DNA from: Mariniflexile fucanivorans
Lineage (GTDB): Bacteria; Bacteroidota; Bacteroidia; Flavobacteriales; Flavobacteriaceae
Reading direction: 5' to 3'
Length of the DNA: 64,000 nt
NCBI RefSeq assembly: GCF_004341235.1
Contig: NZ_SLUP01000007.1
Span: forward strand, 62,001-126,000
Positions 18,022 to 61,825 of this stretch are shown piece by piece. How positions within the stretch are numbered: position 1 is the first letter of the stretch; each line of letters begins with the position of its first letter. The notes under the pieces are model-generated. The model worked only from the letters and a program-made list of their open reading frames with translations. It was not told the DNA's origin and did no database searches. A program made the translations under genes and the position numbers.

Positions 18022-18037
18022 TATGACTTATATCATA
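18022..18037. promoter_or_regulatory. Fnr/Crp-type palindrome upstream of hemN
   Basis: TATGAC, four bases, ATCATA. Its centre (18029.5) is exactly 33 bp upstream of the centre of a perfect -7 box, which is near -40 relative to the expected transcription start, the class II activator position. Confidence 0.7.
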
Positions 18038-18058
18038 TTATTTTGAACTCATTTGCGT

Positions 18059-18066
18059 TAATTTTG
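18059..18066 (+). promoter_or_regulatory. hemN promoter -7 box (TAATTTTG)
   Basis: Perfect TAnnTTTG. The predicted start of transcription is near 18070, leaving only a few bases before the ATG at 18074, so the ATG at 18083 may be the real start. Confidence 0.65.
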
Positions 18067-18073
18067 ATTTTAA

Positions 18074-19447
18074 ATGTTAGGTATGCATAATTCATTAGTC
18101 AATAAATATAATATTGCGGGTCCACGGTACACCAGTTACCCAACGGTTCCGTATTGGGATGATGCTTCATTTTCACTAGAAGCATGGAAGTCATCATTGA
18201 AAAAATCTTTTGATGAAAGCAATTCAAAAGAAGGTATCAGTTTGTATATTCATTTGCCGTTTTGCGAGAGTTTATGCACTTTTTGTGGGTGCAATAAACG
18301 TATAACTAAACAGCATAGTGTAGAATCACCTTATATAAATGCGGTTTTAAAAGAGTGGGGTTTGTATTTAAATTTGCTAAATGATAAGCCTTTTATAAAA
18401 GAATTACATTTAGGAGGTGGTACCCCAACTTTCTTTAGTCCTGATAACTTGAAAAAACTTATTAATGGTATTTTAAATACCTCAGAACTTGCTGATAATT
18501 ATGAGTTTAGCTTTGAGGGTCACCCAAATAATACCACGAGAGAACATTTACAAGCATTGTACGATGTAGGTTTTAGGCGTGTAAGCTACGGTGTGCAAGA
18601 TTATAACGAAACCGTGCAGAAAGCTATTCATAGGATTCAACCTTTTGAAAACGTAAAACGTGCTACTGAATTGGCGCGCGAAATAGGATACACCTCTGTT
18701 GGGCATGATATTATTTTCGGCTTGCCGTTTCAAACACTGGAACATGTAGAGCAAACCATTTTAAACACAAAGGAATTATTGCCCGATAGATTGGCATTTT
18801 ATAGTTATGCCCATGTACCTTGGATAAAAGGTAGTGGACAACGCGGGTTTAGTGATGCCGATTTGCCTTCACCTGAATTAAAAAGAAAACAATACGAGTT
18901 AGGTAAAAAACGACTTGCTGAAGTGGGTTATCATGAAATAGGTATGGACCATTTTGCATTACAAACCGATTCACTTTACAAATCGATGCAGAACGGTAAT
19001 TTACATAGAAATTTTATGGGTTATACCGCATCAAAAACCCAGGCTATGATTGGGTTGGGCGTCTCTTCAATTAGCGATAGTTGGTATGGTTTCTCTCAAA
19101 ATGTAAAAGGAATAGAGGAGTATTATAACTTGTTAAAAGACAATATTATACCTGTCTATAGAGGGCATATTTTGAATGAAGAAGATTTAATTATTAGGAA
19201 ACATATTCTTAATTTAATGTGTCAGTTTAAAACAACTTGGTCTAGTACTTTAAATTATTTTGAAGAATTGCCAGAAGTCCTTGTTAAATTAGAGGAAATG
19301 GAAAGCGATAAATTACTCATTATTGAGGCAAATAAAATTGAGGTTACAAAAAAAGGACAGCCATTTGTTAGAAACATCTGTATGGCCTTCGATTTATTAT
19401 TACAACGAAAACAACCCGACACACAGTTGTTTTCTATGACTGTTTAA
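18074..19447 (+). CDS. hemN: Oxygen-independent coproporphyrinogen III oxidase
   Basis: Radical SAM enzyme converting coproporphyrinogen III to protoporphyrinogen IX when oxygen is scarce, for heme synthesis (457 aa). The iron-sulfur cluster motif is C64-x3-C68-x2-C71-x-C73. GGGTPTF binds S-adenosylmethionine, and the opening YNIAGPRYTSYPT is typical of true HemN and not of HemW. A second in-frame ATG lies at 18083 (MHNSLVNKYN). The Fnr-type site upstream fits its role of feeding heme to the cbb3 oxidase in this window. Confidence 0.95.
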   Translation: MLGMHNSLVNKYNIAGPRYTSYPTVPYWDDASFSLEAWKSSLKKSFDESNSKEGISLYIHLPFCESLCTFCGCNKRITKQHSVESPYINAVLKEWGLYLNLLNDKPFIKELHLGGGTPTFFSPDNLKKLINGILNTSELADNYEFSFEGHPNNTTREHLQALYDVGFRRVSYGVQDYNETVQKAIHRIQPFENVKRATELAREIGYTSVGHDIIFGLPFQTLEHVEQTILNTKELLPDRLAFYSYAHVPWIKGSGQRGFSDADLPSPELKRKQYELGKKRLAEVGYHEIGMDHFALQTDSLYKSMQNGNLHRNFMGYTASKTQAMIGLGVSSISDSWYGFSQNVKGIEEYYNLLKDNIIPVYRGHILNEEDLIIRKHILNLMCQFKTTWSSTLNYFEELPEVLVKLEEMESDKLLIIEANKIEVTKKGQPFVRNICMAFDLLLQRKQPDTQLFSMTV

Positions 19448-19493
19448 TTAAAAAATAGCATTCCGTATTATCGGGATTTAAAAATATCATATT

Positions 19494-20330
19494 ATGAAGA
19501 AAATTATAGTTCCAGTAGATTTTTCAGAACATTCTGAATATGCACTTAAAACAGCTGCTAAATTTGCAACAAAATTTAATGCTGAAATTTTAGCTTTACA
19601 CATGTTGGAGATGACCGATGTCATGTTAACAGCTTCTGATGGATTTCAAAACGAACAAGCTATATTCTTTTATAAATTGGCTGAGCAAAAGTTTGAAAAA
19701 TTTCTTCAAAAAGAGTATTTGAAAAACGTGAAAGTAACACCAATTATCAAACATTTTAAAGTGTTTAGTGAAGTGAATGATGTTGCAGAAAAGCATGATG
19801 CCGATTTAATAATTATGGGTTCTCAGGGCGCTAGTGGTGTTAAGGAGTTTTTTATAGGCTCTAATACAGAACGTGTAGTTAGAAATGCCGAAATCCCTGT
19901 GTTGGTTGTAAAAAACCAATTAAAGGACATTAATTTTGAAACCGTAGTTTTTGCTTGCGATTTTAAAGAAGAGTCTATACAATCGTACAAGAATGCGGTT
20001 AAAATGTTCGATAAAATCAATTCTAAAATGTATATGGTTTACGTGAATTTACCTAGCGAACGCTTTAAAAGTTCTGTAGAAATTGAAAAAAACGTTGTTA
20101 ACTTTTTCACAAAAGCAGAAAGCAATCTTGATAAAATGGATACTGTTCATTATGTGTCTGATTATACCGTTGAAACAGGTGTCGTAAATTTCGCTTTAAA
20201 AGTGGGTGCCGATATTATTGCTATGCCAACACATGGTAAAAAAGGGTTGGCACACTTTTTTGAAGGTAGCATAGGTGAAGACGTTGCAAACCACGCTAAC
20301 TTACCTGTAATGACCTTTAAAATTAATTAG
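19494..20330 (+). CDS. Universal stress protein, two UspA domains
   Basis: Cytoplasmic tandem Usp protein (278 aa). The first domain begins KKIIVPVDFSEHSEYAL and carries an ATP-binding G-x2-G-x9-GS pattern in GSQGASGVKEFFIGS. The second ends with PTHGKKGLAHFFEGS. It lies 46 bp after hemN with no terminator seen and is probably co-transcribed under the same Fnr-type control. Its stop is close to that of the convergent tolC-like gene (8-bp overlap). Confidence 0.92.
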   Translation: MKKIIVPVDFSEHSEYALKTAAKFATKFNAEILALHMLEMTDVMLTASDGFQNEQAIFFYKLAEQKFEKFLQKEYLKNVKVTPIIKHFKVFSEVNDVAEKHDADLIIMGSQGASGVKEFFIGSNTERVVRNAEIPVLVVKNQLKDINFETVVFACDFKEESIQSYKNAVKMFDKINSKMYMVYVNLPSERFKSSVEIEKNVVNFFTKAESNLDKMDTVHYVSDYTVETGVVNFALKVGADIIAMPTHGKKGLAHFFEGSIGEDVANHANLPVMTFKIN

Positions 20331-21726
20331 TATTAATATTTGAAATTACTAGCACATTAAACAAACTGGCCTTAGTATTGAAAAAGCTATTTTCCAATGC
20401 TATGGCTTTTAGTTTGGCGTCTATTAATTTGGATTCTCTAGAGTTTACCAAAAAAAGAGAGCTTTCGCCCAAAAAGAATTTACGTTCTTCAGCGGTTAGC
20501 ATCTGTTCATAATCTCCAACAATAACAGTGGTGTAATTATTTTGTAATGTATAAGATTCTAGTTCTTGATTTATAGAAATTATTTTGTTTTTCAGACTTA
20601 TTCTTGCTGTTTGTATTTCAAATTTGGTATCCTGAATTTTTAATTGGGCTAATTTTAAATCGGCACGTTCTTTTCTTAAAAAAAGAGGAATGCTAACATT
20701 TAATCCGCTTTTGTAAGCTGAAGTACTAAAAGACCTTGAAACTTCTGGTGTTTGCGATAAAAAATTATATTGCAAATCTACTTTTGGAAGCAAATTGTTG
20801 AGTGATAAACGTTTTTCAATAGTTAAGCCTTGAAGCTTGTAATCTAAAGATTGCATCTTCGGATGGTCGTTTATGTTGAGATTTTCAATTTCTAATCCAG
20901 AGGTGTTAAGAATGGTGTCAACACTTTCAAAAGTATTAATATCCGGGATTATATCGTCATTAATTTCAACAGGTGTATTCTCATCAAGCCATAAATAATT
21001 AGATAATTCCAATGACGATTTCATGAATTTCACTCGAGCTTTTTCAAGATTTAACCTTCTGTCATTTAATGTAATACGGGCTTCTAAGGTGTCGATGGCA
21101 GGCATTTCGCCTACCTCAAAACTCTTTTTCACACCATCAAAACGCATGATTGCATTATTTAAAAAATCTTCATAAACACGTTTTTCATTATATGTTTTTA
21201 ACCAATTAAAATAAGTGGTTGTAGCATTGTATAAAATAGTGTTAACTAGTATTTGCCTATCTGCTTTAGCTTGTTTTATATACATTTTAGCTTGTTTAAG
21301 CATGGCCATGCGCTTGTTAATTAATAAACCTTGTGCTAATGAAACCGATACGCCTGCACTATACAATCCATCATCAGGAACAGTTGCTTCAGGGTTTAGA
21401 TAATCGCCGGTATTTTCCTCAAAATTACCTTTAAGTTCAATGCCATACCAAGTAGGTATTTTAAAGGTGGCGTTTAATTTATTGTAATATTCGGTGTTTT
21501 TAAAGGTTTTCTGGTTGTAGTCTATTTCAAATTTCGGGTCGAAGGCACCACGTGCTTTCATAAGTTTAGCTTCACTCTCATTGATTAATAGGTTGGCTTG
21601 TTTTACTATGGGATGAAATGTTTTTACATAACCCAAATATTCAGATAAACTGATAATAGAAGTGCCCTCTTGGGCTGGAAGAATAGCGCTTAAGAGTAGT
21701 GAAATATATAATATTAAATACCTCAT
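20323..21726 (-). CDS. TolC-family outer membrane efflux protein
   Basis: Outer-membrane channel of a tripartite exporter (467 aa). A signal peptide (MRYLILYISLLLSAILPAQ) precedes two repeated OEP domains rich in coiled-coil helices, with ALKLIDAK-like segments near the end. Its ATG overlaps the HlyD stop as ATGA, so the genes are translationally coupled. It completes the ABC-HlyD-TolC system. Confidence 0.92.
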   Translation of the reverse strand: MRYLILYISLLLSAILPAQEGTSIISLSEYLGYVKTFHPIVKQANLLINESEAKLMKARGAFDPKFEIDYNQKTFKNTEYYNKLNATFKIPTWYGIELKGNFEENTGDYLNPEATVPDDGLYSAGVSVSLAQGLLINKRMAMLKQAKMYIKQAKADRQILVNTILYNATTTYFNWLKTYNEKRVYEDFLNNAIMRFDGVKKSFEVGEMPAIDTLEARITLNDRRLNLEKARVKFMKSSLELSNYLWLDENTPVEINDDIIPDINTFESVDTILNTSGLEIENLNINDHPKMQSLDYKLQGLTIEKRLSLNNLLPKVDLQYNFLSQTPEVSRSFSTSAYKSGLNVSIPLFLRKERADLKLAQLKIQDTKFEIQTARISLKNKIISINQELESYTLQNNYTTVIVGDYEQMLTAEERKFFLGESSLFLVNSRESKLIDAKLKAIALENSFFNTKASLFNVLVISNINTN

Positions 21727-23084: not shown

Positions 23085-23089
23085 GTTTT

Positions 23090-24748: not shown

Positions 24749-24751
24749 AAA

Positions 24752-25426: not shown

Positions 25427-25443
25427 ATTTGATATTTATATTC

Positions 25444-29519: not shown

Positions 29520-31703
29520 TTAGTTTTGAGCGGTTTCTACCTTAATATCGGTTCCCAATCGTTGCAAATAAGCTATAACAGCTACAATTTCACGATTTTT
29601 CATTTCTACAAAAGCATCCCCATTTTCGGCTGCATATTTTTTGTCTGCTTCATAAGCCGTTACAAAATCAGGATCCGCATACAAGTTTTTCTCAATTTGT
29701 GTTCCTTGCGCCAACATGTTTTCTTGGGCTTTTGCAATCTCTTCATCAGTATATGGAACGCCTAGTGTTACCATTGTTCTCATTTTGGCTTCTGTATCAG
29801 ATTTATCCAATTCATTATTAATTAACCAAGGGTAACGAGGCATGATAGAGCCCGATGAGGTACTTTGCGGATCGTACATGTGATTAAAGTGCCAGTTGTC
29901 TGAATACTTACTACCAACTCTATGTAAATCCGGTCCGGTACGCTTACTGCCCCATAAGAATGGATGATCATAAACGTATTCACCAGCTTTTGAGTATTCA
30001 CCGTAACGTTCCACTTCACTTCTAAACGGACGAATCATTTGTGAGTGACAGCCCACACAGCCTTCACGGATATAAATATCACGGCCTTCTAATTCTAAAG
30101 GTGTGTATGGTTTTACGCTTGCTATGGTTGGGATATTTGATTTTACCATGATGGTTGGAACAATTTGAACAATACCACCAATTAAAATAGCTATAGTTGC
30201 TAAAATGGTTAGTTGTACTGGTCTTCTTTCTAACCATGAATGCCATCCTTCACCAGAAGTACGTTTTTTGGTTACACGTTCCAAGGCTGGAGCTTCTGCT
30301 AATTCGTCTTCAACTTTACTTCCGTTTTTAATAGTTACAATAACATTGTAAACTAAAATAAACATTCCGGTAATATATAAGGTGCCACCAATAGCACGCA
30401 TCCAGTACATAGGCATGATTTCGGTAACAGTTTCTAAAAAGTTACCGTATACTAATGTTCCGTCAGGATTGAATTGTTTCCACATACTTGCTTGGGTAAA
30501 TCCAGCAACATATAATGGCAAGGCGTACATAATAATACCTAAAGTACCAATCCAGAAATGTAAATTTGCTAACCCAATGGAATGTAATTTAGTTTTGAAT
30601 AATCGTGGCACTAGGTAATAAATCATACCAAAAGCCAAAAATCCGTTCCATGCTAATGCGCCAACGTGAACGTGTGCAATAATCCAATCGGTAAAATGGG
30701 CAATAGCATTTACGTTTTTAAGTGATAGCATTGGGCCTTCAAAAGTTGCCATACCATAACCGGTTATAGCGACTACCATGAACTTTAAAACAGGGTCTGT
30801 ACGTACTTTGTCCCAAGCACCACGAAGCGTTAAAAGACCATTTATCATACCACCCCAAGATGGCATTAATAGCATAACGGAGAAGGCTACACCTAAATTT
30901 TGAGCCCATTCTGGTAAGGCGCTATAAAGTAAATGGTGAGGTCCTGCCCATATATATATGAAGATTAACGACCAAAAGTGAACAATAGAAAGTCTGTATG
31001 AGTAAACGGGTCTATTAGCCGCTTTGGGCACATAATAGTACATCAATCCTAAAAAAGGTGTGGTTAAAAAGAATGCTACGGCATTGTGACCATACCACCA
31101 TTGTACTAGGGCATCTTGTACACCAGCATACACCGAATAACTTTTGAAAGCAGTTACAGGAAGCTCTAAACTATTAAATATGTGAAGTACGGCAACCGTA
31201 ACAAATGTGGCAATGTAAAACCAAATGGCTACATATAAATGACGTTGTCTTCTTTTTAAAATCGTCCAGATCATGTTAACACCAAAAACTACCCAAATTA
31301 AAGCAATGGCAATATCAATTGGCCATTCTAATTCGGCATATTCTTTGGAAGTTGAAAACCCTAAAGGAAGTGTTATTGCAGCAGCAACAATAATTAATTG
31401 CCAGCCCCAAAAGTTAATATTGCTTAAAAGGTCGCTAGCCATACGTGTTTTAAGTAAACGCTGTAGCGAATAGTAAATACCCGCAAACATGGCATTTCCT
31501 ACAAATGCAAAAATAACGGCATTGGTATGTAGGGGTCTTAAACGCCCAAAGCTAAGCCATGAAATACCATCGGTTAGGTTTGGAAATAAAAACATAAATG
31601 CCAATAGTAAACCTACCGACATTCCTACAACTCCAAAAACTATTGTAGCATAGATGAATTTTGTAACGATCTTATTATCGTAGTGAAATTGTTGCATCTC
31701 CAT
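29520..31703 (-). CDS. ccoNO: cbb3 cytochrome c oxidase, fused CcoN-CcoO
   Basis: High-affinity terminal oxidase core (727 aa). The first 480 residues form the twelve-helix heme-copper subunit I, with the metal-site histidines in WWYGHNAVAFFLT and HVHVGALAWNG. The C-terminal part is CcoO, a membrane-anchored cytochrome c with CVGCHSQ near residue 548 and a methionine-bearing segment, SIMPRYPW. Fusion of N and O is normal in Bacteroidota. It supports respiration at low oxygen. Confidence 0.97.
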   Translation of the reverse strand: MEMQQFHYDNKIVTKFIYATIVFGVVGMSVGLLLAFMFLFPNLTDGISWLSFGRLRPLHTNAVIFAFVGNAMFAGIYYSLQRLLKTRMASDLLSNINFWGWQLIIVAAAITLPLGFSTSKEYAELEWPIDIAIALIWVVFGVNMIWTILKRRQRHLYVAIWFYIATFVTVAVLHIFNSLELPVTAFKSYSVYAGVQDALVQWWYGHNAVAFFLTTPFLGLMYYYVPKAANRPVYSYRLSIVHFWSLIFIYIWAGPHHLLYSALPEWAQNLGVAFSVMLLMPSWGGMINGLLTLRGAWDKVRTDPVLKFMVVAITGYGMATFEGPMLSLKNVNAIAHFTDWIIAHVHVGALAWNGFLAFGMIYYLVPRLFKTKLHSIGLANLHFWIGTLGIIMYALPLYVAGFTQASMWKQFNPDGTLVYGNFLETVTEIMPMYWMRAIGGTLYITGMFILVYNVIVTIKNGSKVEDELAEAPALERVTKKRTSGEGWHSWLERRPVQLTILATIAILIGGIVQIVPTIMVKSNIPTIASVKPYTPLELEGRDIYIREGCVGCHSQMIRPFRSEVERYGEYSKAGEYVYDHPFLWGSKRTGPDLHRVGSKYSDNWHFNHMYDPQSTSSGSIMPRYPWLINNELDKSDTEAKMRTMVTLGVPYTDEEIAKAQENMLAQGTQIEKNLYADPDFVTAYEADKKYAAENGDAFVEMKNREIVAVIAYLQRLGTDIKVETAQN

Positions 31704-31714: not shown

Positions 31715-31903
31715 TTAATCTTTTAATTGGTTAGTATTTGTTTTTTTTGGTTTTTCTTTAACGAGTTCGTCCTCAAAAAGCATTCTTATGGATGGTGTAT
31801 AACTGTCATCGTATTGTCCATTTTTTACAGCCAAAATAAAGGCAATAAAAAATACAATAGCAACAGTTACGCTTACAGCTAACAAAACATAAATAACACT
31901 CAT
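31715..31903 (-). CDS. ccoS: cbb3 oxidase maturation protein CcoS
   Basis: A 62-residue protein with one N-terminal membrane helix (MSVIYVLLAVSVTVAIVFF) and a short acidic tail, as in CcoS, which is needed for heme and copper insertion. It is the first gene of the oxidase operon, 11 bp before ccoNO. A strong Fnr-type promoter lies upstream. Confidence 0.9.
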   Translation of the reverse strand: MSVIYVLLAVSVTVAIVFFIAFILAVKNGQYDDSYTPSIRMLFEDELVKEKPKKTNTNQLKD

Positions 31904-31923: not shown

Positions 31924-31931
31924 CAAAAATA
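31924..31931 (-). promoter_or_regulatory. cco operon -7 box (TATTTTTG)
   Basis: Perfect TAnnTTTG on the minus strand, 20 bp upstream of the ccoS ATG. Confidence 0.7.
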
Positions 31932-31950: not shown

Positions 31951-31970
31951 AATATGACATCCGTCATATT
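31951..31970. promoter_or_regulatory. Fnr/Crp-type palindrome upstream of ccoS
   Basis: Perfect 8-bp arms AATATGAC and GTCATATT around a 4-bp centre, the best copy in the window. Its centre is exactly 33 bp from the centre of the -7 box, placing it near -40. Confidence 0.78.
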
Positions 31971-32001: not shown

Positions 32002-34377
32002 TTATTTTAAATTTTTACCCACAATATTAGTGGTAAGCGTTGTAAATATTACAATACTTATAGAACTTAAGGGCATTAAAATAGCAGCAACTACAGGTGA
32101 TAATTGTCCTGTTACCGCAAAATAAAGTCCAATGATATTATAAATAAACGACAATAAAAAACTCCACTTAATAATTTTTATGGCAGATTTAGATATACTT
32201 ATGTAACTGTATAATTGATTAAATTTTGAAGCATCTAAAATAGCGTCGCAAGCGGGTGAAAATACATTAACATTTTCTGAAATGGCAATACCTACATTGC
32301 TTTGTGCCAAGGCACCGGCATCATTTAAGCCGTCACCAATCATTAAAATATTGGCGCCTTCTGTTTGATGATACTTTATATACTCTAGTTTATCTTCAGG
32401 TTTTTGATTGAAAAGTAATTTGGTTTTTGTTGGGAGCAATTTGGTTAAATTGTCTTTTTCACCTTCATTATCACCCGAAAGAATGACCAAATCATAGTCT
32501 TTTTTTAATTCATTAAACAAAAGAGATAACCCTTTTCTATACGCGTTATAAAAGGTGAATTTTCCTTTGTATTGATTGTTTGTGCTTACATGAACCGCTG
32601 TGTTAAGTAAGGCAGATTCTGTAGTGTGGCCTACAAAAGGTGCCGACCCTACTTTTATATGATTTTGGTTGTAAGTTGCCTCAATGCCTTTGCCTAAATG
32701 TTCTTCAAAAGCATCCAAAGTTACAATATCGTGCTCGTTTAATAAGCCATATAATGAACGGCTTAGCGGGTGGTTCGAACCTCGTAAGGTGCTTTTTAGT
32801 AAGGCTTCTTCTTCATTGGAAAGTGTAAGACCTTCATAATCAATAGTTGTTTCTTTATTGGCTGTAATAGTTCCTGTTTTATCAAAAATGATGGTGTTTA
32901 TTTTTGCTAATTGCTCAATAACACTAGCGTTTTTTAAGTAGAATTTTTTCTTTCCTAAAATGTGCAATACATTCCCAAAAGTAAAAGGAGCTGCCAATGC
33001 CAAAGCACAAGGACATGCAATAATTAAAACCGATGTAAAAACATTCATCGCTTTACTGGAATCAAAAATCATCCAAAAAGTAGTGGCTAATACAGCAATT
33101 ATTAAAATAGTTATAGTGAACCGTTTGCTTATTTGGTTGGTAATATTGGTAAAAGCTAATGATTTATCCTTTTTAAACACATCATTACTCCAAAGTTGGG
33201 TTAAGTAACTTTGTTCAACCGATTTTAATACATCTACTTCAATAGTGCCACTTACTTGTTTGCCACCTGCGAATAACTTATCGCCCGATTGTTTTGAAAC
33301 CGTTTTAGATTCACCGGTAACAAAACTATAATCTATACGCGCATTTCCTTTTATTAAAATACAATCAACAGGAATTAATTCTTCATTTCTAATTAAAAGT
33401 CGGTCGCCTTTTTCAATATCATAAACTTGTATAGATTCTTCTTTTTCGTCTGAAGTTATTTTGGTAATTCCAATAGGGAAATACGATTTGTAATCGCGTT
33501 CAAACGATAAAAATGCATAGGTTTTCTGCTGAAAAAATCTACCAAGCAATAAAAAGAAGATAAGCCCAGTTAAACTATCAAAAAAACCGGAGCCTGAGTC
33601 TGTAATAATTTCAAAAGTACTTCTAATAAATAAAACGGAAGCTCCCAATGCAATGGGTACGTCTATATTTAAAATTTTAGAGCGAAGCCCTTTAAATGCC
33701 GATATAAAATAATCTTGTGCTGAATAAAACACAACGGGTACAGAAAATGCAAACATCATCCACCTGAACATGGGTTTAAACTGTTCCAGCCAAAATTCAC
33801 CCACCTGAAAATATTCCGGAAACGATAAAAACATCACATTTCCAAAAGCAAAACCAGCGATACCAAGTTTGTAAATAAGCGATCGGTCTATATGTTTCTT
33901 CCCAACACTATAATCATCTAAACTTATAAAAGGTTCGTAACCAATACTACTTAATAAAACAACCAGATTTTTTAATGAAAGCGTTTCTGCGTTAAAGGTA
34001 ACCCGAACGGTTTTTTTGCCAAAGTTTACTATGGATGCGCTTACCGACGGATTTAATTTATTCAGGTTTTCTAAAATCCAAATACAAGAACTGCAATGAA
34101 TATGCGGAATGTAAAGCGTAATAATTTGGGTGTTGCCGTCATTAAATTCTAAAAGTTGTTCTGTGATTTTAGAATTTTCCAAGAAATTGTATTTGCCTTC
34201 AATGTCTTTAGGTGTCGCACCTGGAGCGTTTTGTAAATCGTAATAACAGGTTAAATCGTTTGCCGAAAAAATTTCGTAAACCGTTTTGCAACCATTACAA
34301 CAAAACACTTTGTTATCAAATTCGATTTTTGAAGACGTCGCATCTAAGCCACAATGAAAACATGTTTCTTTGTCCAT
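32002..34377 (-). CDS. ccoI: Copper-transporting P1B-type ATPase for cbb3 assembly (CcoI/FixI)
   Basis: Exports copper needed for oxidase assembly (791 aa). An N-terminal cysteine-rich metal-binding domain (CFHCG, then CCNGCKTVYEIF) precedes an HMA domain with HCSSC near residue 93. The transmembrane metal site is C455-P-C457, the phosphorylated aspartate is D499 in DKTGT, and the hinge reads GDGLNDAGAL. Eight membrane helices are expected. It is divergent from the PAS kinase and downstream of an Fnr-type site. Confidence 0.95.
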   Translation of the reverse strand: MDKETCFHCGLDATSSKIEFDNKVFCCNGCKTVYEIFSANDLTCYYDLQNAPGATPKDIEGKYNFLENSKITEQLLEFNDGNTQIITLYIPHIHCSSCIWILENLNKLNPSVSASIVNFGKKTVRVTFNAETLSLKNLVVLLSSIGYEPFISLDDYSVGKKHIDRSLIYKLGIAGFAFGNVMFLSFPEYFQVGEFWLEQFKPMFRWMMFAFSVPVVFYSAQDYFISAFKGLRSKILNIDVPIALGASVLFIRSTFEIITDSGSGFFDSLTGLIFFLLLGRFFQQKTYAFLSFERDYKSYFPIGITKITSDEKEESIQVYDIEKGDRLLIRNEELIPVDCILIKGNARIDYSFVTGESKTVSKQSGDKLFAGGKQVSGTIEVDVLKSVEQSYLTQLWSNDVFKKDKSLAFTNITNQISKRFTITILIIAVLATTFWMIFDSSKAMNVFTSVLIIACPCALALAAPFTFGNVLHILGKKKFYLKNASVIEQLAKINTIIFDKTGTITANKETTIDYEGLTLSNEEEALLKSTLRGSNHPLSRSLYGLLNEHDIVTLDAFEEHLGKGIEATYNQNHIKVGSAPFVGHTTESALLNTAVHVSTNNQYKGKFTFYNAYRKGLSLLFNELKKDYDLVILSGDNEGEKDNLTKLLPTKTKLLFNQKPEDKLEYIKYHQTEGANILMIGDGLNDAGALAQSNVGIAISENVNVFSPACDAILDASKFNQLYSYISISKSAIKIIKWSFLLSFIYNIIGLYFAVTGQLSPVVAAILMPLSSISIVIFTTLTTNIVGKNLK

Positions 34378-34405: not shown

Positions 34406-34413
34406 CAAAATTA
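34406..34413 (-). promoter_or_regulatory. ccoI promoter -7 box (TAATTTTG)
   Basis: Perfect TAnnTTTG on the minus strand, 28 bp upstream of the ccoI ATG. It lies 32 bp, centre to centre, from the Fnr-type palindrome. Confidence 0.65.
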
Positions 34414-34434: not shown

Positions 34435-34448
34435 ATGATATTTATCAT
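34435..34448. promoter_or_regulatory. Fnr/Crp-type palindrome between ccoI and the PAS kinase
   Basis: ATGAT, four bases, ATCAT. It sits in the divergent region. On the ccoI side it has activator geometry. On the kinase side a weak TAATTTCA box lies 35 bp away, so control of the kinase operon is less certain. Confidence 0.65.
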
Positions 34449-34483
34449 ATTTTCTCTATTTTTACAGCACTCTAATTTCAGGT

Positions 34484-34600
34484 ATGAGTAAATATAAAAA
34501 TTTTGTTTTTAAACCTTGTAAGATGCATGCATTTTTTTTAAAAGATGATGTGTGTCCTGTTTTTGTGTTTTTTAACAATTCAATAAAATTGTTAGTATAA
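34484..34600 (+). CDS. Possible 38-residue leader peptide before the PAS kinase
   Basis: An ATG at 34484 opens 38 codons ending in TAA at 34598-34600, whose last base is the first base of the kinase ATG (TAATG). The product is basic at the start, hydrophobic in the C-terminal half, and has two cysteines. No family is recognised. The overlap suggests translational coupling, but chance is quite possible. Confidence 0.25.
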   Translation: MSKYKNFVFKPCKMHAFFLKDDVCPVFVFFNNSIKLLV

Positions 34601-36916: not shown

Positions 36917-36930
36917 ATGATTTTGGTCAT
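36917..36930. promoter_or_regulatory. Fnr/Crp-type palindrome upstream of the usp-crp operon
   Basis: ATGAT, four bases, GTCAT. Its centre at 36923.5 is exactly 33 bp from the centre of the TACTTTTG box. Confidence 0.7.
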
Positions 36931-36952: not shown

Positions 36953-36960
36953 TACTTTTG
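36953..36960 (+). promoter_or_regulatory. usp-crp promoter -7 box (TACTTTTG)
   Basis: Perfect TAnnTTTG, 19 bp upstream of the ATG at 36980. It lies after the earlier in-frame start at 36941, which supports the later start. Confidence 0.68.
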
Positions 36961-36979: not shown

Positions 36980-37819
36980 ATGAAGAATATTTTAATACCC
37001 ATAGATTTCTCTGAAAATGCGTGGAATGCTATACAATATGCATTGCACTTTTTTGGCAAATCGTCATGTAATTTTTATTTGCTACATGTTAATACAAGTA
37101 GTAAATTAGTAACCCAAGAAAACCATTTTAGTCAAAATGAAACCCCTGTTTCAGAAACTTTAACAAAACCAGCAAAAAAATTATTGCAAGAAACTGTTAA
37201 GCGTATTCATGACAATTTTCCAAAAAATCAAAATCACAAATTCTTTACCATTTCAGATACTAATTATATTATCGATTCCATTAGGGAACAAGTTGTTTTA
37301 AATAAAATCAATTTTATAGTAATGGGTACCAAAGGTACTTCTGGCTTAAAAAAAATAGCCATAGGCAGTAATGCCGGTAATGTAATAACCAAAGTAAAAT
37401 GTGCCACTTTGGTAGTACCCGAAAATGCTAAGTATACAGAACCCAAAACAATTGCGTTCCCAACCGATTTTTCAATTTTTTACCACCCACAAACCCTACA
37501 ACCCATATTAGATATTCTCGAAGTTAATAAGGCAGCAGTTAACGTATTGCATGTTAATAAGAATGGTTTGGAACTTAATGAGGACCAACAAAGAAATAAA
37601 GAATATTTAACCGATTATTTCACTAATTACAAACATAGTTTTAATTTTGTAGTCAACAAGCACATCGAAAATGCTGTACAACAATTTGTTGATGATAAAG
37701 ACATTCATTTAATAACCATGCTCGCTAAAAACCTAAATTATTTTCAGCGCATCTTATTTCATCCAGCGGTAAGTGAAATCAGTTATTACAAAAACGTGCC
37801 TTTTTTAGTATTACATTAA
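36980..37819 (+). CDS. Universal stress protein, two UspA-like domains
   Basis: Tandem Usp protein (279 aa from the ATG at 36980, MKNILIPIDFSENAWNAI). The first domain has the ATP-binding GTKGTSGLKKIAIGSNAG pattern. The second domain (TIAFPTDFSIFYHPQ onward) lacks the glycine motif and is degenerate. It is followed 15 bp later by the Crp/Fnr gene, so stress protein and regulator share one Fnr-type promoter. Confidence 0.88.
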   Translation: MKNILIPIDFSENAWNAIQYALHFFGKSSCNFYLLHVNTSSKLVTQENHFSQNETPVSETLTKPAKKLLQETVKRIHDNFPKNQNHKFFTISDTNYIIDSIREQVVLNKINFIVMGTKGTSGLKKIAIGSNAGNVITKVKCATLVVPENAKYTEPKTIAFPTDFSIFYHPQTLQPILDILEVNKAAVNVLHVNKNGLELNEDQQRNKEYLTDYFTNYKHSFNFVVNKHIENAVQQFVDDKDIHLITMLAKNLNYFQRILFHPAVSEISYYKNVPFLVLH

Positions 37820-37834: not shown

Positions 37835-38512
37835 ATGAGTAAATGCGAACAATGTATCATTAAACAGTTTAATTCTCTAAAGTCTTTAACAAAAGAGGAG
37901 TTAGTGCGCATTTCTAGTTGTAAAATCTCCATGAATGTTAAAAAAGGGGAAATTATTTTTGATGAAGGTGAAGCCGTAAATGGTGTTTATTGTGTAAAAG
38001 AAGGTATTTGTAAATTATCAAAATTAAGTGCCAACGGTAAGGATCAAATAGTTAAAATTGTGTTGAAAGGCGATTTACTGGGGTATCGATCCATGGTTTC
38101 AGATGAGGTTTCAAATTTACAAGCCGTTGCTTTAATAGATATGAAAGTTTGCTTTATTCCTAAAAGTGAAATAATAAATGACTTGCAAACAAATCCAAAA
38201 TTTTCATTTGATGTTTTAAAGGAAATGGCTCATAACTTAAAAGAAGCCGATGATATTATTGTGAATATGGCTCAAAAATCCGTTCGGCAACGTTTGGCTG
38301 AAACCTTAATTTATATTCATGATAGTTTTGGAGTAAATTCAGACAGAACCTTAAGTGTATTGCTGTCTCGCGAAGATTATGCAAACATTGTTGGTACCGC
38401 TACAGAGTCTGCCATTCGTGTATTATCACAATTTAAAAAGGATAAATTAATCTCCATGGTTGGTAAAAAAATCAGGATTGAAGATATTGAAGGTTTAAAA
38501 CGGGTGGAGTAA
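37835..38512 (+). CDS. Crp/Fnr-family transcriptional regulator
   Basis: A 225-residue regulator with a cyclic-nucleotide-type beta-barrel (GEIIFDEGEAVNGVYCVKEG) and a C-terminal helix-turn-helix (LSREDYANIVGTATESAIRVL). The recognition helix carries E-S-A-I-R, aligning with the E-x-x-S-R of E. coli Fnr that reads TGA half sites. Cysteines at positions 4, 7, 29, 53 and 59 include an N-terminal CxxC and could hold an iron-sulfur cluster, though the spacing differs from E. coli Fnr. It is the best candidate for the regulator of the palindromes in this window and may regulate its own operon. Confidence 0.9.
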   Translation: MSKCEQCIIKQFNSLKSLTKEELVRISSCKISMNVKKGEIIFDEGEAVNGVYCVKEGICKLSKLSANGKDQIVKIVLKGDLLGYRSMVSDEVSNLQAVALIDMKVCFIPKSEIINDLQTNPKFSFDVLKEMAHNLKEADDIIVNMAQKSVRQRLAETLIYIHDSFGVNSDRTLSVLLSREDYANIVGTATESAIRVLSQFKKDKLISMVGKKIRIEDIEGLKRVE

Positions 38513-54730: not shown

Positions 54731-54736
54731 TTTTTA

Positions 54737-55183
54737 TTACTTGTCGTTTTGATTGTATATTTTTTTGTTACATATCATGTCGCCAATTACATCGGAAACT
54801 TCATAAAAATGTTTTAATTTTTCCTCAGAAACATTTTTTTTGATGGCTTCATTAAAGATGACAACACGCTCTTTTGAATACGCTCGTTTTTCATGGCCAA
54901 ATTCGGTTAAATGAATAATAACACCTCTGCCATCATCTGGGTTTGGTTTGCGTTCTATTAAACCTTTTTGCTCCATGGTTTTTAATATTCTTGATAAACT
55001 GGTGGCTTCCATGCCCATTTTTGGGCCTAATGCTGTAGATGGTGTCCCTTTTTCTGGGTCTATACTTAATAATGTAAAGCCAGTTGCCATGGTGGTTTCA
55101 AATTTAGCAGCTTCTTCATTATACATTTTTTGAACAGCAAGCCATGTGGTTCTTAATATATAATCAATCGTTCTTTCCTTCAT
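54737..55183 (-). CDS. MarR-family transcriptional regulator
   Basis: A 148-residue winged-helix regulator and first gene of the beta-oxidation operon. The DNA-binding part reads MGMEATSLSRILKTMEQKGLI, split here as recognition helix SLSRILKTMEQKG, followed by the wing RKPNPDDGRGVIIHLTEFG. A perfect 20-bp palindrome precedes its promoter. It likely represses the operon in the absence of an acyl-CoA ligand, as inferred from its position. Confidence 0.9.
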   Translation of the reverse strand: MKERTIDYILRTTWLAVQKMYNEEAAKFETTMATGFTLLSIDPEKGTPSTALGPKMGMEATSLSRILKTMEQKGLIERKPNPDDGRGVIIHLTEFGHEKRAYSKERVVIFNEAIKKNVSEEKLKHFYEVSDVIGDMICNKKIYNQNDK

Positions 55184-55203
55184 ATTTTTTTGGTCGGTAA
55201 TTC

Positions 55204-55211
55204 CAAATATA
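55204..55211 (-). promoter_or_regulatory. marR operon -7 box (TATATTTG)
   Basis: Perfect TAnnTTTG on the minus strand, 20 bp upstream of the marR ATG. Confidence 0.7.
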
Positions 55212-55218
55212 TGAAAAT

Positions 55219-55238
55219 ATATTATGCATGCATAATAT
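55219..55238. promoter_or_regulatory. Probable MarR operator, perfect 20-bp palindrome
   Basis: ATATTATGCA followed by its exact complement, no loop. It lies 7 bp upstream of the -7 box, between the two promoter elements, so a bound dimer would exclude RNA polymerase. Confidence 0.7.
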
Positions 55239-55289
55239 GCTTAAAAAATTTATGATGTTTTTTTGTTTTGCTCTTATTTAAAAACCTTA

Positions 55290-57059: not shown

Positions 57060-57192
57060 TTGTTCTTTTGAAAGTTTCTGGTTATGCAAATTATGAAAAT
57101 AAATGAGATTTTCAAATATGCCTATAAAAAAGTAGTTTTTTATTATTTGTAACATTTATTTTTTACGAATATGCTAAAAATAAAATCGTTAT

Positions 57193-57206
57193 ATGATATA
57201 AATCAT
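57193..57206. promoter_or_regulatory. Fnr/Crp-type palindrome upstream of ppdK
   Basis: ATGAT, four bases, ATCAT. A weak TAAATTCA box (57229-57236, two mismatches) lies exactly 33 bp away centre to centre. Confidence 0.5.
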
Positions 57207-57265
57207 TGAAAAACCAGATTTAAGTATCTAAATTCATGCATTTGATGTCTATTAAATTTAATATT

Positions 57266-59995
57266 ATGGAAGTCTTACAAGAAGTAAAAACAAGAGTTTA
57301 TAAGTTCGGTAATAATTTTGCAGACGGAAACAGCAAAATGAAAAACCTTTTAGGTGGCAAAGGTGCGAATTTAGCTGAAATGAGTGCCATTGGTATTCCC
57401 GTTCCGCCGGGATTTACCATAACGACCGAAGTTTGTACCGAATATAATTTATTAGGAAAAGACAAAGTCGTCGATTTGATAAAAACCGAAATTGAAGAAG
57501 CTATTTTCAATATTGAATCGTTAATGGGAAGTAAATTTGGAGATAAAGACAACCCATTGTTAATTTCTGTGCGTTCGGGTGCCAGAGTGTCTATGCCTGG
57601 AATGATGGATACCGTTTTAAATCTTGGTTTAAATGATGATGTTATTATAGGTTTGGCAACTAAAACAGGTAATGAGCGTTTCGCATGGGATTCGTATCGG
57701 CGTTTTATTCAAATGTATGGTGATGTTGTTTTAGGAATGAAATCCGAATCGAAAGAAGATATCGATCCTTTTGAAGAAATTATGGAGCACCTTAAAGATA
57801 AACGCGGCATCAAACTAGATACTGAGTTTTCTGTTCAGGATTTAAAAGATCTGGTTTACGATTTTAAAGACGCTGTAAAAAAACGTACAGGACATGATTT
57901 TCCAACCGATCCATGGGAACAACTTTGGGGCGCTGTTATTGCTGTTTTTAATAGTTGGAATGGCGATAGAGCTGTATATTATAGAAACATGCATGGGTAT
58001 CCTGCAGATTGGGGAACAGCTGTAAACGTACAGGCCATGGTTTATGGAAATATGGGGGACAACTCGGGAACAGGCGTTTGTTTTACTAGGGATGCTGGTA
58101 CAGGCGAAGATGTTTTTAACGGTGAATATTTAATTAACGCACAAGGTGAAGATGTAGTTGCAGGAACACGAACACCGCAGCAAATTACAAAATTAGGGTC
58201 TTTACGTTGGGCGGAATTAGCAAAAGTTGAAGAAGCGGAAAGAGCTGAAAATTACCCTTCTTTAGAAGAATTAATGCCAGAAATTTTTAAGGAGTTAAAT
58301 GGGTATCAAGAAAAATTAGAAAAGCATTATAAAGATATGCAAGATATGGAGTTTACTATGCAAGATGGTAAACTTTGGATTTTACAAACCAGAAACGGAA
58401 AACGCACAGGTGCAGCCATGGTTAAAATTGCCATGGATATGTTTAAACAAAGTTTAATTTCTGAAAAAGAAGCGCTTTTACGTATCGAACCGAGTAAATT
58501 AGATGAGTTATTACACCCTGTTTTCGACCCAAAAGCTTTAAAAAAAGCAAATGTAATTGCACAAGGGTTACCTGCATCACCAGGTGCGGCAACGGGGCAA
58601 CTCGTGTTTTTTGCAGATGAAGCCAATAAATATAAATATACCATTTTAACACGTATTGAAACTTCTCCTGAAGATTTGGAAGGTATGAACATCGCTAGAG
58701 GTATTTTAACCGCTCGAGGTGGCATGACCTCACATGCGGCTGTGGTAGCTCGTGGTATGGGGAAATGTTGTATTTCTGGTGCAGGAGCATTAACAATTAA
58801 CTATAAGACAAGAACTTTAAAAGTTGATGGCAAAGAATATCATGAAGGTGATTGGATTTCCTTAAACGGTTCTACAGGGAATATTATTGAAGGAAAAGTG
58901 GCGACTAGCGAGCCTGAATTGAGTGGTGAATTTGCTGAAATCATGAAATTATCAGACAAATATGCGACCATGCAAGTTCGAACAAATGCCGATACTCCTA
59001 AAGATGCTAAAATAGCACGAAGTTTTGGTGCTCAAGGTATTGGATTAACCCGTACAGAACATATGTTTTTTGAAGTGGACCGTATTAAAGCCATGCGAGA
59101 AATGATTTTGGCAGATACTGTTAAAGGAAGAAAACATGCTTTAGAAGATTTATTACCCATGCAACGTAGTGATTTTGAGGGTATTTTTGAAGCCATGCAA
59201 GGGCTTCCAGTTACGGTGCGTTTATTAGATCCGCCATTGCATGAATTTGTGCCGCATCAATTGGAAACGCAACGTAGTTTGGCAGAAGATATGCACATAA
59301 CTTTAGAGGCCGTAAAAATAAAAGTCGCCGAATTGGAAGAATTCAACCCTATGTTGGGACATAGAGGGTGCAGATTAGGAATTACCTATCCTGAAATTAC
59401 CGAAATGCAAACAAGAGCTGTTATTGAAGCTGCTTTAAATCTAAAAGAAAAAGGTATTGTTGCAAAACCAGAAATCATGGTGCCTTTAGTTGGTACACTT
59501 GCTGAATTTGAAAGTCAAGAAGCCGTTATTAGAGAAACCGCTAATAAAGTTTTTGAAGAACGAAATGACAGGATTGAGTTTTTGATTGGCACGATGATAG
59601 AAATTCCTAGAGCTGCTTTAATTGCCAATAAAATTGCTAAATATGCAGATTTCTTTTCCTTTGGAACAAACGATTTAACACAAATGGCATTTGGTTATTC
59701 CAGAGACGATGCTGGTAAATTCTTGCCAATTTATATAGAAAAAGGCATTTTAAAAGTCGATCCTTTTGAAGTGTTAGATCAGGAAGGGGTGGGGCAATTA
59801 GTTGAAATGGCTACCCAACTCGGAAGAAGTGAAAAACCTAATTTAAAAGTTGGAATTTGCGGCGAACATGGTGGCGATCCAAGTTCGGTTGAATTCTGTT
59901 ATAGAACAGGATTGAATTATGTGAGTTGTTCACCTTATAGAGTCCCAATTGCTCGATTAGCATCGGCACAAGCTGCTATAAAAGCAACTTTGTAA
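57266..59995 (+). CDS. ppdK: Pyruvate, phosphate dikinase
   Basis: Interconverts pyruvate, ATP and phosphate with phosphoenolpyruvate, AMP and pyrophosphate (909 aa). The N-terminal ATP-grasp domain begins NLLGGKGANLAEM. The phospho-accepting histidine is H490 in GGMTSHAAVVARGMGK, and the C-terminal TIM barrel has the catalytic cysteine in GICGEHGGDP. The ATG at 57266 is preferred over 57236, which lies within the presumed promoter. Link to the Fnr-type site suggests a glycolytic or fermentative role under low oxygen, together with pflB. Confidence 0.96.
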   Translation: MEVLQEVKTRVYKFGNNFADGNSKMKNLLGGKGANLAEMSAIGIPVPPGFTITTEVCTEYNLLGKDKVVDLIKTEIEEAIFNIESLMGSKFGDKDNPLLISVRSGARVSMPGMMDTVLNLGLNDDVIIGLATKTGNERFAWDSYRRFIQMYGDVVLGMKSESKEDIDPFEEIMEHLKDKRGIKLDTEFSVQDLKDLVYDFKDAVKKRTGHDFPTDPWEQLWGAVIAVFNSWNGDRAVYYRNMHGYPADWGTAVNVQAMVYGNMGDNSGTGVCFTRDAGTGEDVFNGEYLINAQGEDVVAGTRTPQQITKLGSLRWAELAKVEEAERAENYPSLEELMPEIFKELNGYQEKLEKHYKDMQDMEFTMQDGKLWILQTRNGKRTGAAMVKIAMDMFKQSLISEKEALLRIEPSKLDELLHPVFDPKALKKANVIAQGLPASPGAATGQLVFFADEANKYKYTILTRIETSPEDLEGMNIARGILTARGGMTSHAAVVARGMGKCCISGAGALTINYKTRTLKVDGKEYHEGDWISLNGSTGNIIEGKVATSEPELSGEFAEIMKLSDKYATMQVRTNADTPKDAKIARSFGAQGIGLTRTEHMFFEVDRIKAMREMILADTVKGRKHALEDLLPMQRSDFEGIFEAMQGLPVTVRLLDPPLHEFVPHQLETQRSLAEDMHITLEAVKIKVAELEEFNPMLGHRGCRLGITYPEITEMQTRAVIEAALNLKEKGIVAKPEIMVPLVGTLAEFESQEAVIRETANKVFEERNDRIEFLIGTMIEIPRAALIANKIAKYADFFSFGTNDLTQMAFGYSRDDAGKFLPIYIEKGILKVDPFEVLDQEGVGQLVEMATQLGRSEKPNLKVGICGEHGGDPSSVEFCYRTGLNYVSCSPYRVPIARLASAQAAIKATL

Positions 59996-60020
59996 CTATT
60001 GAGTTTTTTTTACAGTAATA

Positions 60021-60060
60021 TTTGGTTTGCTAAATTGATTATCCAGTTTAGCAAACCAAA
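60021..60060 (+). terminator. Terminator after ppdK
   Basis: Perfect 14-bp arms 60021-60034 and 60047-60060 with a 12-base loop, followed by TTGTTTT. It begins 26 bp after the ppdK stop and, being symmetric, may also serve the convergent TPR gene. Confidence 0.75.
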
Positions 60061-60179
60061 TTGTTTTAATAGTAATATCAGAACTAAAATCCATGATATA
60101 AAACACTAATTATATATTGATTCCTTAATTCTTTCAGGAAGTTTACTCAAGCTTTTTGTTAAGTGGATGTTATTTATTT

Positions 60180-61559
60180 CTATTCTTTTACTACTTTAAA
60201 AGAATGTACAACTCCATCCGATTCGATATTTAAAATATAGAGACCAGATTGGAAATTAGAAATTTTAATTGTTTTGTAATCAGCAATTCCTTCTTGAACT
60301 AATTTCGATTCAAAATTGTATATGTAATACTTAAAATTGCTGAAATCTATATTATTAACAGTTACATAATCTTTTATTGGATTTGGGTGTATAAATGGTA
60401 AATCAGATAATTTTTGAGATTGCATTTCTTTTGGTTCATTATTACAAGCTGCATGAATATAATCTTCTAAATCGTATTTGTCATATATTTTTTCATACCC
60501 TAATTCCTTGGCTTTTTGTAAATATTCGCAAGCTTTTTTATAATTGCCCAGTTCAAGATAAATGATGCCTAAATTTCTATGTGCATAAGTATTATCTTTT
60601 TTTATGTTTATAGCTTCTTCTAAATCGGCTATTCCGTCTTCAGATTTACCTAATTTATGATAAATGAAACCTCTAAGTGTTCTAACGTCGAAATCGCCAT
60701 ATCCACTCCCCAATTTTACTAAGTTATCTTCTTTCTTAAAAGCTACATCAATGGAATATTTTGCATTTTCATAATCTTCAAAATCAGTATATAATGCAGC
60801 TAGTAGTCTATGTGCAAAATCATGATTTGGAATTTTTTCAAGAACTTTATTTAAGTATGTTTTTGCTAACGTATATGACTTTATCGAATATAAATAACCT
60901 CCTAAATTATATTGCAGTCTTAGGTCTTCAGGCTCCGTTTTTATTGCTAAATATCTATAATGGATAGCTTCATTTTCCATTTCATAACTGCTGTAAATTC
61001 CACCCATGCAATCGTATACTTTTGATAGTGAATTTGTTAGTCTAGGGTTGTCTTTTGCGTTTCTTAATAAAATATGTTCTAATTTTTTAAAATCATCTAA
61101 CGCTAATGTATAATTGCCTAAAACATATCGCAAGTTTGCGCGCCTATATAAATAGGCATTACTACTTTTAGAGCTATCTTTAATATGCTTGTTTACAACA
61201 ATTAATTGATCGTGGAAATTTTTTATTTTTTCTTCTGTTTTTATATTATAATCGAGTATGTGGTCTATTCTTTCAATTAAATCACCTTCTTTAAAAATCC
61301 AAGTCGTAAGTTTTTCACCCGCTTTATTAAATCTATAACTAGCACCCTCATAATATCCATTTACATAATAAAAACATTCATTGAGTTCACCCGAATTATA
61401 ATACGTTCTTAAGCTGTCTAGCTTTTTGTCTTCCCCATACCATTTTTCAATAGCAAGAACATTATCTCTATAAAAAAAACGTTCAACCTTGTTTTTGTCA
61501 TTTTGTGAAAAAATGAAAATTGGAATTAAATAAAATACAGTTAAAAAATAGTTTTTCAT
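60180..61559 (-). CDS. Secreted TPR protein with type IX secretion sorting domain
   Basis: A 459-residue exported protein. The signal peptide starts at the ATG at 61559 (MKNYFLTVFYLIPIFIFS). Residues 25-90 resemble MORN/YwqK repeats (YYNSGELNECFYYVNGYYEG). At least five TPR units follow, for example THAYAHRNLGIIYLELGNYKK-type helices. The last 75 residues form a type IX sorting domain, with PNPIKDYV at its start and LYILNIESDG near its end, so the protein should be surface-attached or released. Function unknown. Confidence 0.85.
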   Translation of the reverse strand: MKNYFLTVFYLIPIFIFSQNDKNKVERFFYRDNVLAIEKWYGEDKKLDSLRTYYNSGELNECFYYVNGYYEGASYRFNKAGEKLTTWIFKEGDLIERIDHILDYNIKTEEKIKNFHDQLIVVNKHIKDSSKSSNAYLYRRANLRYVLGNYTLALDDFKKLEHILLRNAKDNPRLTNSLSKVYDCMGGIYSSYEMENEAIHYRYLAIKTEPEDLRLQYNLGGYLYSIKSYTLAKTYLNKVLEKIPNHDFAHRLLAALYTDFEDYENAKYSIDVAFKKEDNLVKLGSGYGDFDVRTLRGFIYHKLGKSEDGIADLEEAINIKKDNTYAHRNLGIIYLELGNYKKACEYLQKAKELGYEKIYDKYDLEDYIHAACNNEPKEMQSQKLSDLPFIHPNPIKDYVTVNNIDFSNFKYYIYNFESKLVQEGIADYKTIKISNFQSGLYILNIESDGVVHSFKVVKE

Positions 61560-61562
61560 CAA

Positions 61563-61780
61563 AATGAATTTTTATAAATTCTCTTACTAAAATACGTTTT
61601 TTTTTATCAATAATATATGCGTTTTTTAGTAATAATTTTCTTTAAAAGTAACATAAGAATGTCTTATTAGAATATTTTCTTCATTAAAATTTTTAATAAA
61701 AAATACACTTTAATTTTTTTTATAAAAAAGTTATTATTCAAACGTTTTCGTTAATTTAATCACATTAAAAACGGGTTTTT
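61563..61780. other. AT-rich divergent spacer
   Basis: Non-coding spacer between the TPR gene and pflB. No frame or RNA gene is seen. Long A- and T-runs dominate. Confidence 0.45.
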
Positions 61781-61781
61781 T

Positions 61782-61795
61782 ATGACAATTGTCAG
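61782..61795. promoter_or_regulatory. Fnr/Crp-type palindrome upstream of pflB
   Basis: ATGAC, AATT, GTCAG, with one outer mismatch. Its centre at 61788.5 is exactly 33 bp from the centre of a perfect -7 box. Confidence 0.7.
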
Positions 61796-61817
61796 TTTTG
61801 AAGTTAAGTTTAGGATT

Positions 61818-61825
61818 TATTTTTG
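61818..61825 (+). promoter_or_regulatory. pflB promoter -7 box (TATTTTTG)
   Basis: Perfect TAnnTTTG, 37 bp upstream of the pflB ATG. Confidence 0.7.

Follow-up and report, generated by a model that had tools for sequence, protein, structure and literature searches.

Paired Sites in the Window

We analyzed a 64,000-nucleotide stretch of the genome of Mariniflexile fucanivorans (contig NZ_SLUP01000007.1, positions 62,001 to 126,000; hereafter the window, whose own numbering is used below), in which a palindrome of the Crp/Fnr kind, ATGAY-N4-RTCAT, recurs at a fixed distance from TAnnTTTG, the -7 element of Bacteroidota promoters. A preliminary description of this DNA had placed such palindromes upstream of six genes or operons, and all six are present at the positions given there. 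The centre-to-centre distances at hemN, ccoS, ccoI, usp-fnr, ppdK, and pflB are 33, 33, 32, 33, 33, and 33 bp, respectively; the box is a perfect TAnnTTTG at five sites, and that of ppdK, already called weak, has two mismatches.

Upstream of hemN, which encodes the oxygen-independent coproporphyrinogen III oxidase (18074..19447, plus strand; TIGR00538, 431.7 bits; an alternative ATG at 18083 is possible), the palindrome ATGACTTATATCAT (18023..18036, plus), with a predicted centre at -41.5, and the -7 box TAATTTTG (18059..18066, plus) have the same spacing as in orthologous promoters. On the minus strand, a palindrome (31954..31967) and the box TATTTTTG (31924..31931), a site also kept in orthologues, precede a small open reading frame of 62 amino acids (31715..31903), called ccoS-like from its position and the preliminary description, and then a ccoNO fusion gene (29520-31703; PRK14485, 1352 bits). 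The palindrome at 34435..34448 lies between two divergent genes. At a gap of 22 bp, the box TAATTTTG (34406..34413, minus) faces a ccoI-like heavy-metal/copper P-type ATPase gene (32002..34377, minus; TIGR01525, 344.1 bits, and TIGR01511, 314 bits, both under cut-off), and at a gap of 9 bp a TAnnTTTA-type box, TATTTTTA (34457..34464, plus), faces a histidine kinase gene. Further along the plus strand, the palindrome at 36917..36930 and the box TACTTTTG (36953..36960) precede a universal stress protein gene (usp, 36980..37819; Pfam Usp), itself the first gene before fnr. The usp profile match is given from 36941; we read the start as the ATG at 36980 rather than the upstream TTG, a choice that needs care.

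The last two sites belong to central carbon genes. At ppdK, which encodes pyruvate phosphate dikinase (57266..59995, plus; TIGR01828, 1319.7 bits), the palindrome (57193..57206, plus), also found in orthologues, is followed by the weak box TAAATTCA (57229..57236, plus); the profile match is given from 57236, and a start at 57266 is more likely. The pflB palindrome ATGACAATTGTCAG (61782..61795, plus), likewise shared with orthologues, and its box TATTTTTG (61818..61825, plus) precede a formate C-acetyltransferase gene that runs beyond the window end (61863..64000, plus; TIGR01255, 1058.3 bits).

The palindrome pattern has 13 strand-matches in the window, at 7 places, vs. 0.97 expected. Its combination with TAnnTTTG at a gap of 22-24 occurs five times, vs. 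a mean of 0.01 and a maximum of 1 in 300 dinucleotide shuffles, only three of which contained at least one pair. Because TAnnTTTG alone is at chance frequency (115 vs. 113.75 expected), the signal lies in the palindrome and its spacing. A seventh perfect palindrome (19611-19624), not listed in the preliminary description, falls inside another usp coding sequence (19494-20330) and has no box.

The Pair Across the Genome

We scanned the 4.74-Mb genome for TGAY-N4-RTCA followed by TAnnTTTG at any gap from 17 to 47 bp, a gap of 23 corresponding to 33 bp between centres. Thirty pairs were found, of which 17 have gap 23, three gap 24, one gap 22, and one gap 21, the other eight being scattered; the reversed control gave 10 pairs over the same range. 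The accumulation of 17 of 30 pairs at a single gap has a binomial probability of 3.6e-18, uncorrected for the 31 gaps. All but one of the 21 pairs at gaps 22-24 lie outside open frames of at least 100 amino acids; the exception is C6:141785 (gap 24).

The strict palindrome ATGAY-N4-RTCAT occurs at 49 places, vs. 31 for its reversed control; 29 are intergenic and 20 lie within open frames of at least 110 amino acids. An exact box stands at gap 22-24 for 14 of the 29 intergenic palindromes vs. none of the 20 coding ones (Fisher, 2e-4). A box with one mismatch at gap 23 is found for a further eight intergenic and two coding palindromes, leaving seven and 18, respectively, with none. The preliminary description had proposed such a comparison with coding and unrelated positions as a check on its candidate regulon; the pair withstood it, and the spacing is sharp.

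Outside the window, 15 sites are intergenic; we named their first downstream genes, several of which are only partly covered. Metabolic genes include those for a 2-oxoacid:acceptor oxidoreductase alpha subunit (TIGR03710), a phosphate acetyltransferase, a methylmalonyl-CoA epimerase (TIGR03081) followed by a carboxyltransferase, a second carboxyltransferase, and a GPR1/FUN34/YaaH transporter. Other sites precede genes for a hemerythrin-PAS protein, a small protein followed by a TonB copper-receptor-like gene, a thioredoxin-like protein, an ArsR-type regulator, a YoaP-like protein, a TonB-dependent receptor, and an alginate-export-like porin; one precedes a short open reading frame and then another receptor-like gene. 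Respiration, copper, fermentation, or propionate metabolism would account for about half of the 15; the remainder are not obvious low-oxygen genes. Two proteins encoded directly behind paired sites have no family match (L026 in Pfam and NCBIfam, L041 in NCBIfam) and are candidates for low-oxygen functions not yet described. A further palindrome, whose box at gap 23 has one mismatch, lies 5' of a gene for EF-G2 of the Bacteroidota type (L255, G000:C6:158277).

Conservation in the Flavobacteriaceae

Among 60 Flavobacteriaceae genomes, one per genus, 57 contain the fixed-gap motif, with 477 sites in all vs. nine for the reversed control. The hemN promoters of 41 genomes (own excluded) include 31 with an exact pair at gap 23, one at gap 24, and two with a one-mismatch box at gap 23. 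At the ccoS/ccoN promoters of 47 genomes (own excluded), 33 pairs are exact at gap 23 and 11 have a one-mismatch box at that gap, ten of these being TAnnTTTA; the remainder are one palindrome without such a box and two promoters without a site, one of them at a contig end. We matched ppdK in ten genomes (own included), nine of which have upstream sequence, and in all nine a box stands at gap 23 from the palindrome (three exact, five with one mismatch, and our own with two). These orthologous boxes, of the form TAnnTTT(G/A), lend support to the weak ppdK box of the preliminary description. An exact pair precedes pflB in six of ten genomes (own included). Sequence logos built only from exact matches (17 own and 140 related sites) display a run of T at -33 to -31 that extends to -30 in the related sites.

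Predicted Promoter Geometry

Class II activation by FNR takes place from a site centred at -41.5. The sigma-A -7 box of Flavobacterium psychrophilum has been placed at -12 to -5 (PMC9723704); with the box centre thus at -8.5, a distance of 33 bp puts the palindrome centre at -41.5. The class II position near -41.5 that the preliminary description had assumed agrees with this arithmetic, and the activator palindrome is predicted from its box spacing to sit there. The same paper reports that oxygen limitation strongly induces the cbb3 oxidase, as well as heme synthesis enzymes (PMC9723704). Its main text mentions neither Crp nor Fnr, and our motif is a candidate mechanism for the induction described there.

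The FNR-Like Regulator P0002

The fnr gene (37835..38512, plus) encodes P0002, a protein with the Crp/Fnr architecture (Pfam cNMP_binding and HTH_Crp_2). Among NCBIfam models it matches Fnr PRK11161 best, with 92.9 bits against a cut-off of 228, and its nearest orthologue by name is that of Mariniflexile gromovii (91% identity). We compared it with the best 80 of 399 related loci, that is, 81 sequences with the window. Cysteines C4, C7, C53, and C106 are invariant in 81/81, and C29 and C59 are present in 80. E. coli FNR has its four cysteines at positions 20, 23, 29, and 122, and recognizes TTGAT-N4-ATCAA. Cys20, Cys23, and Cys122 align with C4, C7, and C106 in all 81 sequences; the set of four is not reproduced in P0002. 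The palindrome has the same spacing as the FNR box, but its outer bases are mostly A and T: the 5' outer base is A in 94% of 17 own sites and in 81% of 140 related ones (C in 15% of the latter). Because a ligand position and the outer base of the motif both differ, we call P0002 FNR-like and do not file it as FNR.

We suggest that P0002 is a probable iron-sulphur sensor acting through C4, C7, C53, and C106, with a predicted [4Fe-4S] site in which one ligand would be displaced to residue 53. Among six relatives from other families, L264, L265, L266, and L269 (37-43% identity) keep these four cysteines but neither C29 nor C59, L267 keeps three (C4 could not be judged with the chosen start), and L268 none. 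The AlphaFold model of P0002 is of moderate confidence, with a mean predicted local distance difference test score (pLDDT) of 75.8 and one of 63 over the first ten residues; its PDB matches are Crp/Fnr proteins, with 2gau first and Aliivibrio fischeri FNR from rank 9.

The Receiver-Crp Fusion P0001 and Its PAS Kinase

The preliminary description had spoken of two Crp/Fnr proteins in the window. This is correct for P0002; the other, P0001 (35841..36893, plus), is instead a receiver-Crp fusion (Pfam Response_reg, cNMP_binding, and HTH_Crp_2) with its own PAS histidine kinase alongside (P0003, 34600..35844, plus). The PAS domain of P0003 is closest in the PDB to FixL: of 14 PDB matches to the first 140 residues, seven are FixL and six are DosP, YddU, or a "heme PAS sensor". 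The comparison covers 20 kinases, that of the window among them; three paired ones of a different type and an incomplete sequence were set aside. The position of Bradyrhizobium FixL His200, which we take to be the heme ligand, is a histidine in 20/20, and that of Arg220, presumably the arginine of the oxygen pocket, is an arginine in 18/20; other pocket positions differ. The conserved heme-ligand histidine is not that of the "DPH" motif but an earlier one.

Around fusion-type or related Crp genes, 14 of the 19 neighbourhoods contain a site with gap 22-24, which in 12 stands directly 3' of the fusion. The genome encodes another receiver-Crp fusion elsewhere (63% identity to P0001), with a kinase upstream (L253, G000:C5:305257-306306); it is followed by a palindrome with a one-mismatch box and then by usp-like genes.

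A Palindrome Between ccoI and fnr

In 72 of the 80 related fnr loci, a palindrome lies 35-70 bp 5' of fnr, with nnnnTTTG at gap 23 toward the divergent ccoI in 69 and TAnnTTT(A/G) at gap 9 toward fnr in 67, these relaxed boxes having been chosen after inspecting the loci. The fnr box is 19 bp from the palindrome centre, which would place the latter at about -27.5, within the polymerase footprint, and we infer from this that fnr is autorepressed. In most relatives, a single palindrome thus probably serves ccoI at -41.5 and represses fnr at about -27.5.

Four of the remaining eight loci have a kinase-fusion pair in between. In the window and these four relatives (L046, L053, L055, L075), the pair stands between ccoI and fnr, the palindrome and the gap-9 box are kept 5' of the kinase gene, and fnr is found behind usp with its own gap-23 site. 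This count covers only loci with separate histidine kinase and response regulator matches, other response regulator matches being mostly fnr itself. The kinase-fusion pair looks as if it had been inserted just behind the fnr start, leaving the fnr-type promoter in front of the kinase. In this stretch (34435-34500), an ATGAGT at 34484, resembling a remnant of a start codon, follows the promoter 5' of the PAS kinase gene.

Which Regulator Reads the Palindrome

Taken together, these data make it very probable that the Flavobacteriaceae share a low-oxygen regulon whose promoters follow a single rigid class II design, with P0002 and P0001 as its likely regulators and either of them probably sufficient alone. 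What we observe is that the sites lie between genes with this spacing, that they are conserved 5' of orthologues, and that they co-occur with the regulator genes. The shared low-oxygen programme proposed in the preliminary description is borne out insofar as many sites lie 5' of heme, cbb3, copper, and fermentation genes and the spacing is kept across genera. Binding, activation, and oxygen as the signal are predictions from these patterns. A Crp/Fnr-type dimer would bind ATGAY-N4-RTCAT centred at -41.5 and activate the housekeeping sigma-A RNA polymerase at the TAnnTTTG box (-12 to -5). The candidate readers are the FNR-like P0002 and the receiver-Crp fusion P0001, the latter presumably driven by the FixL-like PAS kinase, and each could probably serve by itself. 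The palindrome at about -27.5 of fnr would close a negative feedback loop in most relatives. The regulon would work like a class II FNR/FixK regulon, and the finding reaches well beyond the window.

Several results weigh against this interpretation. Seven of the 29 intergenic strict palindromes, that of ppdK included, have no box with at most one mismatch at the right gap; the stretch inspected 5' of hemN lacks the pair in seven of 41 genomes, and among the 32 exact hemN sites two (G012, G054) are about 360 bp upstream; four of the ten pflB promoters have no pair within 400 bp. In P0002 and its relatives, the position of E. coli FNR Cys29 is Asn (77 sequences) or Ser (4). Site counts by regulator speak for the interpretation: the median is 6 with the FNR type only (25 genomes), 14.5 with both (12), 8 with the fusion only (11), and 1 with neither (12). 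The 60 genomes were classed by a match to P0002 at E 1e-60 and to P0001 at E 1e-100, cut-offs set only after the E-values had been seen. At the cut-offs used for ccoN and hemN, ten of the 12 genomes with neither regulator have no ccoN match and 11 no hemN match, so that their low counts indicate co-loss with the targets rather than binding, and the contrast is not independent. Moreover, one genome of this class (G048; 82% complete, 6% contaminated) has nine sites, and two (G020, G048) have a ccoS site.

The palindrome might be read only by P0002 or its relatives, the fusion having other targets and being present by coincidence. P0002 orthologues adjoin ccoI in 77 of 80 loci with their cysteines conserved, and the 25 genomes without a close fusion have 2-26 sites, as this explanation would have it. 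We nevertheless judge it rather unlikely: the 11 fusion genomes that lack a P0002 match at E 1e-60 keep 5-16 sites, including the hemN site in 8/9 and the ccoS site in 10/11, which suggests that either regulator may read the same code. The recognition helices point the same way. They read GTATESAIRVL in P0002 and GIALESLIRTL in P0001, with Ile at the position of E. coli FNR Ser212, and E-(S/T)-x-I-R is common to P0002 and 18 of the 19 fusions compared, P0001 included. The 5' outer base is C in six of eight hemN sites and seven of ten ccoS sites of the fusion-only genomes, less often elsewhere, and may reflect a slightly different preference of their reader.

That the palindromes belong instead to a Crp-like carbon or energy regulator, such as BT4338 of Bacteroides, seems to us improbable. 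Several targets are indeed central carbon genes (ppdK, pflB, phosphate acetyltransferase, and carboxyltransferases), and the EF-G2 gene noted above recalls fusA2 of B. thetaiotaomicron, reported to be under BT4338 control (PMC6989115). The BT4338 consensus, wwwTATGTTnTAnAACATAwww, is a different motif (PMC3878776, PMC6989115), and by eye none of the six window sites fits it, the genome not having been scanned with that motif. The sites conserved most often are those of ccoS, ccoI, and hemN, and three of the ligand positions of E. coli FNR are cysteines in P0002. As for chance or the background of A+T-rich promoters, with which the chance frequency of TAnnTTTG alone in the window would agree, the shuffles, the reversed-pattern controls, and the orthologous conservation at one gap lead us to regard it as refuted.

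Relation to Known Systems

The regulon resembles that of E. coli and Aliivibrio FNR in the Crp/Fnr fold of P0002, the N4-spaced TGA..TCA palindrome, the centre at -41.5, three of four ligand cysteines, and the low-oxygen gene set. It differs in the outer base of the site, A (ATGAY) rather than T (TTGAT), and in the TAnnTTTG promoter of the Bacteroidota type; P0002 itself differs in the Asn or Ser at FNR Cys29, the conserved Cys53 elsewhere, and the Ile at FNR Ser212. In the rhizobial FixL-FixJ-FixK cascade, a separate FixJ activates a separate fixK. As in that cascade, a FixL-like PAS kinase adjoins cbb3 genes, and the targets include cco (fix) genes and hemN; unlike in that cascade, a single protein of this gene pair combines receiver and Crp output. 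No separate FixJ acting on a separate fixK is part of the kinase-fusion pair, FixJ not having been searched for elsewhere in the genome.

A tentative but quite conceivable reading is a short-circuited FixL-FixJ-FixK system, in which a FixL-like heme kinase would phosphorylate the receiver-Crp fusion acting at -41.5 of cbb3, heme, and fermentation promoters. This code would be shared with an FNR-like iron-sulphur protein of rearranged ligand set; lineages would retain one sensor, the other, or both, the two being chemically different but interchangeable, and in most relatives one palindrome would both activate ccoI and repress fnr.

BT4338 is likewise a Bacteroidota Crp-family activator with a -7 box near its fusA2 site, as an EF-G2 gene is near a site here, but its palindrome differs and its signal is carbon limitation (PMC6989115, PMC3878776). 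HcpR and HcpR2 are FNR-like regulators of Bacteroides and Porphyromonas with partly N4-spaced palindromes; their motifs are others, namely wTGTGAnnnnnnTCACAw, TTGAC-N4-GTCAA, and GTAAC-N4-GTTAC, and the HcpR regulons of most Bacteroides and of P. gingivalis consist of hcp only (PMC1274295). A Flavobacteriales Crp homologue has been treated with a MalR matrix (PMC8510549). Within the open-licence literature, we recognized no paper on this motif, its geometry, or the fusion in flavobacteria. We regard four elements as new: a rigid grammar that the family shares on a Bacteroidota promoter, the displaced cysteine, an alternative reader in the form of the receiver-Crp fusion, and the palindrome with its probable double role in activation and repression.

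Oxygen control in the Bacteroidota, whose promoters are not of the textbook type, is little described in the literature searched, and so rigid a motif allows candidate low-oxygen genes to be listed from sequence alone. A promoter code that stays in place while its sensor is exchanged would allow regulatory rewiring to be tested directly, and the displaced cysteine lends itself to tests as a variant of FNR chemistry.

Occurrence Across the Phylum

In a scan of 296 genomes of the phylum that are at least 90% complete, the motif is present in 123: 30/30 in the family (own included), 5/6 in the rest of the order, 31/37 in the rest of the class, and 57/223 in the remainder. Site totals for family, order, and class are 280, 24, and 112 vs. 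5, 0, and 7 in the controls. The motif is weaker outside the family, where the search for P0002 covered 29 chosen genomes. One genome from another class of the phylum (G328) has 28 fixed-gap sites, above every family genome counted, and encodes a P0002 relative (L265) with the same four cysteines.

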